A DNA stretch of 64,000 nucleotides from positions 1 to 64,000 of the forward strand of contig NZ_CYSF01000001.1 in NCBI RefSeq assembly GCF_001458435.1. Direction: 5' to 3'. The stretch comes from Thalassovita mediterranea. Its GTDB lineage: Bacteria > Pseudomonadota > Alphaproteobacteria > Rhodobacterales > Rhodobacteraceae. Below the pieces are notes generated by a model. The model did not search any database. It saw nothing but the letters and a program-made list of their open reading frames with translations, and was not told the DNA's origin. The position numbers were made by a program, and so were the translations under genes. Shown one piece after another: positions 49,650 to 52,354 of this stretch (position 1 is the stretch's first letter; each line of letters opens with the position of its first letter).

Positions 49650-50165
49650 ATGAAACGTAAGATCCTGATCCACCCCGACCCGCGCCTGAAAAAGCTTTGT
49701 GATCCCGTTGCGGATATGAGTGATGAATTGCGTGTGCTGGCGGACGACATGCTGGAAACCATGTATGACGCGCCAGGCATCGGTCTAGCCGCGCCGCAGA
49801 TCGGTGTGCTGCATCGGGTGATCACGCTGGATTGCACCGCACAGGAAGAGGCAGATCAGCCGCTGGTGATGTTCAATCCTGAAATCATCGCGCGTTCAGA
49901 TGAAATGTCCTCTTATGACGAGGGCTGCCTGTCGATCCCCGATCAGTTTGCCGAGGTGATCCGCCCTGCAGAGGTGACCGTGCGTTGGATGGACCGCGAC
50001 GGGGCAGAGCAGGAAGACACCTTCCGCGATCTCTGGGCGACCTGTGTGCAGCATGAAATTGACCACCTCGATGGCAAGCTGTTCATCGACTATCTGAAGC
50101 CGCTGAAACGGCAGATGATCACCCGCAAGATGCAGAAGCTGAAACGCGAACTGGCGCGTGGCTGA
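49650..50165 (+). CDS. def: Peptide deformylase 1 (171 aa)
   Basis: Metallo-hydrolase removing the formyl group from N-terminal fMet of new proteins. All three family motifs are intact: GIGLAAPQ (43-50), EGCLSIP (91-97, metal ligand Cys93), and QHEIDHLDG (134-142, metal ligands His135 and His139, catalytic Glu136). This makes it the housekeeping enzyme of the three-gene array. The ATG at 49650 gives the standard N-terminus MKRKILIHPDPRL. The in-frame 47-residue extension upstream lacks family similarity. First of def-def-def-fmt. Confidence 0.96.
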   Translation: MKRKILIHPDPRLKKLCDPVADMSDELRVLADDMLETMYDAPGIGLAAPQIGVLHRVITLDCTAQEEADQPLVMFNPEIIARSDEMSSYDEGCLSIPDQFAEVIRPAEVTVRWMDRDGAEQEDTFRDLWATCVQHEIDHLDGKLFIDYLKPLKRQMITRKMQKLKRELARG

Positions 50166-50167
50166 TC

Positions 50168-50668
50168 ATGGCGGTGCTCGAGGTTCTGCACTGGCCTGAC
50201 CCGCGATTGCAGCAGGTTTGCGATCCGGTGCCAGAGGGTGCGGATTTGCGGGGGCTGGCCGCTGATATGCTGGACACGATGTATGCCGCGCCGGGCCGTG
50301 GTCTGGCCGGTCCGCAGGTGGGTGTGATGCAGCGGATTTTCGTGATGGATTGCGATTGGAAAGAGGGCGTGCGCGCGCCGCAGGTTCTGATCAATCCTGA
50401 GATAGTCTCGGCCTCTGATAACTTGGTGGGCGGTGTTGAGGGCTGTTTGTCTATCCCCGATGTGCCGATGGACGTGTCCCGCCCGGCCTCGGTTGTGATG
50501 ACATGGCTTGACCTCGACGGACAGCACCACCGACGTGAGATGACAGGCTTTGAAGCAAAATGCGCCCAGCATGAACTAGACCACCTGAACGGCAAGGTGA
50601 TTTTTGACCACTTGTCGCCCGATGACCGCACCCGGCTGGAAGCCGCATATAAGGAGGCGCAGCAATGA
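50168..50668 (+). CDS. def: Peptide deformylase 2, motifs mostly intact (166 aa)
   Basis: Second deformylase, 2 nt behind the first. Motif I is GRGLAGPQ instead of GIGLAAPQ: Arg at the second position and Gly for the second Ala near the oxyanion region. Motif II EGCLSIP (Cys93) and motif III QHELDHLNG (His135, Glu136, His139) are complete, so metal binding and chemistry should work, with possibly altered substrate pocket. It ends overlapping the third copy by ATGA. Likely a paralogue with different N-terminal substrate preference (inference). Confidence 0.92.
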   Translation: MAVLEVLHWPDPRLQQVCDPVPEGADLRGLAADMLDTMYAAPGRGLAGPQVGVMQRIFVMDCDWKEGVRAPQVLINPEIVSASDNLVGGVEGCLSIPDVPMDVSRPASVVMTWLDLDGQHHRREMTGFEAKCAQHELDHLNGKVIFDHLSPDDRTRLEAAYKEAQQ

Positions 50669-51159
50669 CCGTGCGCAAATGTATTCCCTGGCCCGACAAA
50701 CGCCTGCGCACTGCGGCGGAACCTGTGGCTGAAATCACCGATCACGTGCGTCAGGTCTGGGATGATCTGATCGATACGATGTACGCGATGCCCGGTGTCG
50801 GTATGGGCGCGAACCAGATTGGTGAAATGCTGCGCTTGATTGTGGTGGACGCGACGGAGGAGGGCAATCAGCCCGTCCGTATGGCTAACCCAGAGATCCT
50901 GCATGCCTCCGTCCAGCCGCGCGAGCATGATGAGGCCAGCCCGAACTTGGTGGGCGTATCTGCCAAAATCTCGCGCCCGCGTACGGTGACGGTGCGCTTC
51001 ATGAACGAACAGGGTGAGATGGAAGAGCGAGATTTTGTCGGCCTTTGGGCGACCTCGGTGCAGCACCAGATCGACCACATCAACGGCAAGATGTATTTCG
51101 ATCATCTTAGCAAAACCAAACGCGACATGCTGATCCGCAAGTCGCGCAAAGCACGCTAA
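50665..51159 (+). CDS. Degenerate peptide deformylase paralogue, probably inactive (164 aa)
   Basis: Clearly a deformylase by length and overall alignment (DTMYAMPGVGMGANQIGEMLRLIVVDATEEG, RPRTVTVRFMNEQGE). But the key sites have changed. Motif I is GVGMGANQ. Motif II, normally EGCLSxP with a metal-ligand Cys, reads SPNLVGVSAK, so that Cys is absent. Motif III is QHQIDHING, with the catalytic Glu replaced by Gln135, although His134 and His138 remain. It is intact as a gene and coupled to copy 2 by ATGA overlap, with the ATG at 50665 after AAGGAGGCGCAGCA. Expected to lack classical deformylase activity. Confidence 0.9.
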   Translation: MTVRKCIPWPDKRLRTAAEPVAEITDHVRQVWDDLIDTMYAMPGVGMGANQIGEMLRLIVVDATEEGNQPVRMANPEILHASVQPREHDEASPNLVGVSAKISRPRTVTVRFMNEQGEMEERDFVGLWATSVQHQIDHINGKMYFDHLSKTKRDMLIRKSRKAR

Positions 51160-51195: not shown

Positions 51196-52101
51196 ATGCG
51201 GGTCGTCTTTATGGGAACGCCGGAGTTTTCGGTTCCGGTTCTGGATGCGCTGGTTGAGGCGGGCCATGACATTGCAGCCGTCTACTGCCAACCCCCGCGT
51301 CAGGCAGGCCGCGGCAAAAAAGAGCGTCCAACCCCCGTTCACGCCCGTGCGTTGGAGCTGGGTTTGGACGTGCGCCATCCTGTGTCGCTGAAAGGTGCTG
51401 AGGAACAGGCAGAATTTGCTGCCCTCAACGCCGATGTGGCGGTCGTTGTCGCCTATGGCCTGCTGCTGCCGCAGGCCATTCTGGATGCGCCTGCGCGGGG
51501 CTGTCTGAATATCCACGCCTCCCTCCTGCCGCGCTGGCGCGGGGCGGCGCCGATCCATCGGGCGATCATGTCCGGTGACGCAGAAACCGGCATCTGCATC
51601 ATGCAGATGGAGGCGGGTCTGGACACTGGTCCTGTGTTGCTGCGTGACGCCACCGCGATTGAGGCCGAAGAAACCACCGCGCAATTGCATGACCGCCTGT
51701 CCGTCATGGGCTCTAGCCTGATTGTTGAGGCCCTGTCGCGTCTGCCTGATCTGACGCCTGAGGTTCAGCCGGAGGAGGGCGTGACCTACGCCAGCAAGAT
51801 CGACAAGGCCGAGGCGGCGATTGACTGGTCCGCGCCTGCGGCTGAGGTAGATCGCAAAATTCGTGGCCTATCGCCCTTCCCGGGTGCGTTTGTGGAATAT
51901 GAGGGGCAGCGGATCAAACTGCTGGCTTCGCGTCTGGCGGATGGCAGCGGCGCGGCAGGCACTGTGCTGGATGATGCGCTGACTGTGGCTTGCGGTGAGG
52001 GTGCGGTGCAACTGTTGCGCTTGCAACGTGCGGGCAAAGCGGCCCAAGATGCCGAGGTGTTCCTGCGCGGTCTACCGCTGCCCAAGGGCACACAGCTGTA
52101 A
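51196..52101 (+). CDS. fmt: Methionyl-tRNA formyltransferase (301 aa)
   Basis: Transfers formyl from 10-formyltetrahydrofolate to initiator Met-tRNA. N-terminal catalytic domain [42 protein letters not shown]. The formyl-folate site is [30 protein letters not shown], with the conserved Asn-His and the later Asp in [11 protein letters not shown]. The C-terminal tRNA-binding domain starts near [26 protein letters not shown]. The ATG at 51196 follows AAGGGAGCAGGGGTA. It closes the def-fmt operon, so formylation and deformylation are encoded together. Confidence 0.97.
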
Positions 52102-52117: not shown

Positions 52118-52354
52118 ATGTTTCCAACCCTGATCGGCACCGTGGTGATCGCGGGTATCCTTGGCTATCTGGTGGAAAAAACCGGCTTCACTCACAACGG
52201 TATTCTGCCGTCGATCATCATCTGTGTCGGCGGCGCGTTCCTGTTTTACTTCGTGCGGATCATGTTCGGCATCAGCTTCGGCCCGCCGGGCGTGGATGCG
52301 ATCCTTGCCTCTATCGGGGCGCTGATCATCGTGCCAACGCGCTGGCGCAAGTAA
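52118..52354 (+). CDS. Small membrane protein (78 aa)
   Basis: Two or three hydrophobic segments (MFPTLIGTVVIAGILGYLVE, LPSIIICVGGAFLFYFVRIMFG, VDAILASIGALIIVPTRW) in a 78-residue protein. Resembles the GlsB/YeaQ/YmgE (transglycosylase-associated) small membrane family, though less clearly than its neighbour. The ATG at 52118 follows CCGGAGGGCACGTGCC. It sits 16 nt after fmt and 12 nt before a second small membrane protein, so the three could be one transcript. Function unknown. Confidence 0.75.
   Translation: MFPTLIGTVVIAGILGYLVEKTGFTHNGILPSIIICVGGAFLFYFVRIMFGISFGPPGVDAILASIGALIIVPTRWRK

Follow-up and report, generated by a model that had tools for sequence, protein, structure and literature searches.

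The stretch of Thalassovita mediterranea DNA analysed here (contig NZ_CYSF01000001.1, 64,000 nucleotides; hereafter the window) carries three peptide deformylase (PDF) genes side by side, and the third of them, def3, encodes a protein in which the catalytic motifs are altered. What would such a copy be kept for? Deformylase is an essential enzyme and a drug target. Clustering of def genes in the Rhodobacterales is already known: it has been described in 98.1% of the reference species, three PDF genes lying together in 62.5% of these genomes, and the rationale for it has been called elusive (PMC12690207). The catalytic loss in the third copy appears to be new. The accessible text of PMC12690207 includes no statement that one of the clustered copies is catalytically altered, that of PMC3024229 has nothing on def3, and we found no report of third-copy catalytic loss in the open literature, a body of work that excludes most subscription journals.

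The third deformylase gene in the window

The four genes of the cluster lie on the same strand in the order def1-def2-def3-fmt (Table 1). The 3' neighbour of def3 is presumably fmt, encoding methionyl-tRNA formyltransferase, a name given from its position. The start codon of def3 is located inside the def2 stop codon, in an ATGA overlap. The third gene had been described in the original prediction as intact and coupled through this overlap to an active-looking copy, and both points are borne out, the product of def2 retaining EGCLS and HELDH. When Def3 was used as a query against the window's own genome, the three PDF genes of this cluster were the only matches at E 0.001.

Table 1. Features of the def cluster in the window. 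Def3 residues are counted from the start of the open reading frame.
Feature	Position	Strand	Description
def1	49650..50165	+	canonical peptide deformylase; GIGLAAPQ / EGCLS / HEIDH; basic C-terminal helix
def2	50168..50668	+	deformylase with unaltered EGCLS and HELDH; motif I carries Arg (GRGLAGPQ); basic C-terminal helix lost
def3	50665..51159	+	putative pseudo-deformylase, 164 aa; ATG start, frame intact
def3 motif I	50794..50820	+	residues 44-52, GVGMGANQI; Gln51 (E. coli Gln50) kept
def3 altered motif II	50932..50955	+	residues 90-97, EASPNLVG; Ser92 for Cys90, Pro93 for Leu91
def3 altered motif III	51064..51078	+	residues 134-138, HQIDH; Gln135 for Glu133
def3 basic C-terminal helix	51112..51156	+	residues 150-164; Lys152, Lys159 and Lys162 equivalent to E. 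coli Lys150, Lys157 and Lys160
fmt	51196..52101	+	presumed methionyl-tRNA formyltransferase
small hydrophobic protein	52118..52354	+	78 aa; 3' of fmt

Def3 passes the general family profiles, with 125.7 bits against Pfam PF01327 (cut-off 22.8) and 120.7 against TIGR00079 (cut-off 103.95). It falls below the cut-off of NF001159 (115.7 vs. 125), which Def1 and Def2 both exceed. NCBIfam holds no model specific to Def3, the best being NF009484 (129.6 vs. a cut-off of 190). The label 'peptide deformylase-like' exists in databases for some alphaproteobacterial copies. In an alignment of the three neighbours, Def3 and Def1 of the window share 44% identity. The AlphaFold2 model of Def3 (mean pLDDT 92.3) includes a C-terminal helix at residues 150-163 and matches the E. 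coli PDF structures 1xen and 4az4 with a TM score of 0.94 and 32% identity (rmsd 1.1 for 1xen), while 3k6l_C, the weakest E. coli entry among the matches listed, has a TM score of 0.88. The fold predicted by this model is that of a type-1-like peptide deformylase. With type 1 enzymes (PF01327, TIGR00079), Def3 has in common the fold, the length, the Gln of motif I, both His residues of motif III and the basic C-terminal helix.

Catalytic residues of Def3

Conservation was evaluated in 94 distinct Def3 sequences from 94 genomes of the family Rhodobacteraceae (80 genus codes), together with 112 Def1 and 57 Def2 sequences. These genomes are not a random sample, being drawn from the window's own genus, from the best-scoring, from deliberately low-scoring and from very complete genomes. 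A further 80 loci were fetched with patterns that included EASPNL, and the 61 additional distinct Def3 sequences which they contain were for this reason kept outside the 94. Sequences were labelled Def3 if their best match was Def3 or if they carried the Ser/Gln pair, and the label is hence partly circular; as a check, all 154 rows with Def3 as best match lack both the Cys and the Glu. One sequence with Def1 as its best BLAST match (L080) was placed with Def3 for its Ser and Gln, and another (L222, from genome G374), assigned to Def1 on its best match, is the sole Def1 row without the Cys. The latter is a lone PDF-like gene reading EGSLS (Cys to Ser) and HEIDQ (last His to Gln), and no fmt was found nearby.

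In the window alignment, motif II of Def3 reads EASPNLVG where Def1 and Def2 read EGCLSIPD, motif III reads HQIDH in place of HEIDH (Def1) or HELDH (Def2), and motif I, GVGMGANQ, retains its Gln. A replaced motif II and an HQIDH sequence had already been noted for this gene, and the description holds for 94/94 Def3. Relative to type 1 PDF, five substitutions stand out. Position 92, the equivalent of E. coli Cys90, is Ser in 93/94 and Pro in 1/94, and never Cys; position 93 (Leu91) is Pro in 94/94; position 94 (Ser92) is Asn in 88/94 and Cys in 6/94; position 131, corresponding to the second active-site cysteine (Cys129), is Ser in 93/94 and Pro in 1/94; and position 135 (Glu133) is Gln in 94/94. 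These counts cover Gln135 and the first three residues of the SPNLVG segment, whose conservation the original prediction had marked for checking. The six sequences with Asn94 changed to Cys (among them L055, L057, L066, L069 and L078) read SPCLPG, an unusual swap by which a cysteine comes to lie two residues away from where the ligand was lost. The equivalent of E. coli Gly89 is Ala in 79/94. At the same time, His134, His138, Gln51 (E. coli Gln50) and Glu90 (E. coli Glu88) are each present in 94/94, and motif I conforms to G-Phi-G-Phi-A-A-x-Q with some drift, the Gln and the second Gly being found in all 94, the first Gly in 92, and the two Ala positions being Gly in 24/94 and 7/94.

The equivalent columns of Def1 have Glu in 112/112, Cys in 111/112 and Leu in 112/112, and those of Def2 have Glu in 56/57, Cys in 56/57 and Leu in 57/57. 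The mean number of cysteines per protein is 3.62 in Def1, 3.68 in Def2 and 1.01 in Def3. The Cys of EGCxS and the Glu of HExxH, both expected of a functional deformylase, occur in 0/94 Def3 each. Orthologues that keep Cys and Glu would have spoken against the original prediction, and none of the 155 distinct Def3 sequences retains either residue, including the 61 from the motif-based and therefore biased fetch, all of which have Ser and Gln. Sequencing error or chance as the source of the changes is ruled out, since 94/94 Def3 share them.

Glu133 is the general base of deformylation, and its change to Gln removes that base. The backbone amide of Leu91 helps to hold and stabilise the formyl oxygen during the reaction, a function missing in Def3 because proline has no such NH. 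With Cys90, Glu133 and Leu91 all replaced, Def3 therefore lacks three distinct elements of the reaction. In the Salmonella PDF, Cys90 is required for activity and a change of the second Cys to Ser approximately halves it (PMC7683392). Altered PDF motifs alone are no proof of inactivity (PMC12690207), and we consider it very probable, from the residues involved, that Def3 is not a classical deformylase.

It is unlikely that Def3 is still a hydrolase acting through another metal set (the two His with a different ligand or water) or on another substrate, for instance as an oxidation-tolerant form in which both active-site cysteines are gone. Such an activity would be in keeping with the invariance of both His, Gln50 and Glu88 and with the low cysteine content, and altered PDFs have been suggested to use other cofactors under stress (PMC12690207). 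However, the presence of Pro at position 92 in one orthologue (L063) rules out Ser92 as a new nucleophile or required ligand. The absence of the general base and of the Leu91 NH also argues against a hydrolase.

Weak or inactive PDFs of type 3 are described from archaea and trypanosomatids and as second copies in S. aureus and S. pneumoniae (PMC5591237, PMC12690207). Def3 resembles them in having catalytic-motif substitutions and, like the bacterial examples, in being kept beside an active copy. As described in these sources, however, type 3 proteins are changed in motifs I and II and have a C-terminus of no conserved length, whereas Def3 is changed in motifs II and III and keeps the motif I Gln and the basic helix.

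Distribution, ancestry and selection

A search of 394 Rhodobacteraceae genomes (393 genus codes) gave a PDF match in 382. Among the 347 good genomes, i.e., those at least 90% complete and at most 5% contaminated, Def3 is present in about 304, a count made from the best-match table with E < 1e-43 as the threshold and with the addition of two genomes (G231 and G383) whose loci showed Def3. Of the other 43 or so, 3 had no match and 40 matched more weakly; 17 of these 40 were opened and all were without Def3, the remaining 23 being called on E value alone. At 15 of the 17 opened loci, fmt comes next after def1 (or after def1 plus def2), no more than about 960 bases away; at the other two (G062 and G374) no fmt was found on the opened stretch. 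Def3 is therefore dispensable in some lineages. It was also found in 61/61 genomes of a second, partly shared set of very complete family genomes, with a best E value of 4.1e-69 or lower. Named genera with Def3 include Thalassovita, Shimia, Salipiger, Ruegeria, Leisingera and Roseovarius.

Whether or not Def2 is present, Def3 has its place in the formyl-Met gene cluster. The gene order is def1-def2-def3-fmt in 50 of the 94 genomes, def1-def3-fmt in 39, and def1-def2-def3 in 5, fmt having gone undetected within the fetched stretch in these last cases. A strict dependence of Def3 on Def2 is unlikely in view of the 39 genomes without Def2 in the cluster, though Def3 may act as a regulatory subunit of active copies, a role suggested in the original prediction. 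An overlap of 4 bases joins def1 to def3 in 14 of these 39, and def3 to fmt in 21/89.

Among 385 genomes of the class Alphaproteobacteria searched with the Def3 profile, five family genomes scored at least 268 bits and all others at most 172, and the 25 class matches outside the family that were opened keep Cys and Glu without exception. In 398 genomes of the phylum Pseudomonadota searched at E 1e-49, the matches were 26 family genomes and the canonical PDF that had scored 172 bits in the class. Genuine Def3 within the family can score just 174.6 bits (G383), and a diverged copy elsewhere could therefore escape these thresholds. Searches of phages and plasmids gave matches below 60% identity, except for one Pseudorhodobacter turbinis replicon at 72.5%.

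In a tree of 133 rows, which includes 36 of the 94 Def3, and with 25 loci from outside the family (L113-L137) as the outgroup, Def3 forms one clade (SH-aLRT 100) with no Def1 or Def2 row inside it. Def2 forms another (99), and Def1 and the outgroup are not separated from each other.

The dN/dS check that the original prediction had proposed gave low values for Def3. Between the window and its three nearest relatives, dN/dS (NG86) is 0.030, 0.044 and 0.048 for Def3, compared with 0.052, 0.096 and 0.090 for Def1 and 0.131, 0.166 and 0.159 for Def2 in the same pairs; fmt gives 0.033-0.079 against the three nearest relatives. The contrast with Def1 is not uniform, since Def3 is the higher of the two in the pairs G007-G002 (0.033 vs. 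0.025), G001-G004 (0.120 vs. 0.060) and G001-G003 (0.183 vs. 0.133). Thus, Def3 is under purifying selection comparable to that on Def1 and mostly stronger than that on Def2. Distant pairs reach 0.256 for Def3, but dS is near saturation at such distances, and for this reason mainly close pairs are quoted. Gln135 is encoded by CAG in 85 sequences and by CAA in 9, and either codon differs from a Glu codon by a single base. Ser92 is encoded by AGY in 75 and TCN in 18. The residues thus persist though the codons change.

Could Def3 be the decaying relic of a duplication? The loss of catalytic residues and the roughly 43 good genomes without the gene would fit, but the idea is extremely improbable and was rejected on the low dN/dS against the nearest relatives; moreover, the new motif SP(N/C)L is nearly fixed, Def3 forms one clade, and its sequences come from 80 genus codes. 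The single clade, the fixed catalytic loss, the low dN/dS and the presence in about 304 of 347 genomes all lend support to the earlier suggestion that Def3 is kept for another role.

A basic C-terminal helix and a putative role at the ribosome

The C-terminal helix of the E. coli PDF contacts uL22 and the 23S rRNA through Leu149, Lys150, Arg153, Lys157, Lys160 and Arg163 (PMC12690207), and its contact with L22 is also described in PMC8712518. Because this region aligns ungapped with a solved PDF, E. coli positions were converted into Def3 numbering with an offset of +2. Lys or Arg is found at the equivalents of Lys150, Lys157 and Lys160 in 94/94, 94/94 and 93/94 Def3, respectively, and in 111/112, 111/112 and 112/112 Def1; the corresponding values for Def2 are 1/57, 4/57 and 4/57. 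From residue 148 on, the mean net charge is +6.6 in Def3, +8.0 in Def1 and -0.9 in Def2, and a net charge of +4 or more occurs in 94/94, 112/112 and 1/57, respectively. As the end of Def2 is not basic, the PDF fold does not require a basic C-terminus. Two of the E. coli contact residues are mostly not reproduced: the Arg153 equivalent is Arg in 5/94 Def3 (Met in 84) and also in only 1/112 Def1, and the Leu149 equivalent is Leu in 15/94 Def3 vs. 76/112 Def1. Judged by the conserved basic helix, Def3 likely docks on the ribosome, in agreement with the binding at the ribosome exit that had been listed among its possible roles. A family-wide protein in which three elements of catalysis are lost and the helix is kept would be a natural case of docking uncoupled from catalysis.

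On this basis we propose, giving the idea about an even chance, that Def3 is a ribosome-docked pseudoenzyme which has lost classical metal-dependent deformylation, is kept across the family, and delays or meters N-terminal processing. Its helix would dock at uL22 beside the tunnel exit, like that of the E. coli PDF, and the docked protein would occupy the site of the active Def1 and of methionine aminopeptidase. The sites of PDF and methionine aminopeptidase on the ribosome overlap, and the two enzymes compete for them (PMC8712518); a competitor that does not cut would therefore shift the timing of both. Def3 might either compete for the site or hold the nascent N-terminus uncut in its remodelled pocket, and the outcome would be that deformylation and methionine removal are delayed or metered. 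The three copies would thereby divide the labour, Def1 being docked and active, Def2 active and undocked, and Def3 docked and inactive. The invariant His pair, Gln50 and Glu88 suggest that a ligand, a metal or a chain end is still bound in the pocket; pure competition for the site would not need such binding, and this counts against that form of the proposal. Overall, Def3 probably works as a binder or regulator and not as an enzyme, and it offers a testable lead on why the Rhodobacterales keep clustered def genes.

A quite unlikely arrangement is a split enzyme, in which Def3 docks and Def2 catalyses, similar to heterodimers with one dead subunit. Def2 has the Cys and the Glu (56/57) and no basic helix, and Def3 is its mirror image; the two genes share an overlap of exactly 4 bases in 39 of the 55 genomes with both, and just 2 of the 57 genomes with Def2 are without Def3. 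Nevertheless, solved PDFs of this type generally function as single chains, and 39/94 clusters with Def3 have no Def2. Furthermore, on an fmt tree of 102 family genomes, which approximates the species tree but has many weakly supported branches and in which the 14 genomes without Def3 were chosen for their low match scores, the presence of Def2 needs 25 changes and that of Def3 only 8.

In another alternative, which we regard as decidedly improbable, Def3 would be an fMet/N-recognin of this family, reading nascent chains that begin with N-formyl-Met and passing undeformylated proteins to a protease. A ribosome-associated fMet/N-recognin has been postulated (PMC4745127), and its identification continues to figure among the open questions of the field (PMC13234167). 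Def3 would bring to this function a docking helix, the lack of classical catalysis, and a P1' wall close to that of Def1 (Leu or Ile at position 127 in 90/94, Thr at 130 in 79/94). However, its pocket is remodelled, with Leu91 to Pro in all sequences, Gly89 to Ala in most, and Asn or Cys for E. coli Ser92, and the fold has no added protease-binding segment. In addition, the degron was described in E. coli, where FtsH has been implicated (PMC13234167), and no Def3 was found outside the family in the class and phylum draws. A lineage-specific version, in which a ribosome-docked Def3 reads formyl-Met without cutting and marks or holds the chains missed by Def1, is equally doubtful. Def3 offers a specific candidate for a formyl-Met binder associated with the ribosome.

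The accessory Def2 of Vibrio is similar in that its ribosome-binding helix and pocket are unlike those of the canonical copy (PMC12690207). The Vibrio protein is active, in contrast to what is predicted for Def3, and the window's Def2 looks the better analogue. Family Def2 sequences carry Arg for a hydrophobic residue in motif I (GRGLA) in 57/57, Gly at Ile86 in 28/57 and Phe at Leu125 in 35/57, and the changes at Ile86 and Leu125 are shared by the actinonin-tolerant Vibrio Def2 (PMC12690207). The Def2 of the window may be an undocked, inhibitor-tolerant deformylase. One family Def2 (L033, from genome G134) has lost both the Cys and the Glu, with NALS in motif II and QQVMDH in motif III, and represents a second, separate case of PDF decay.
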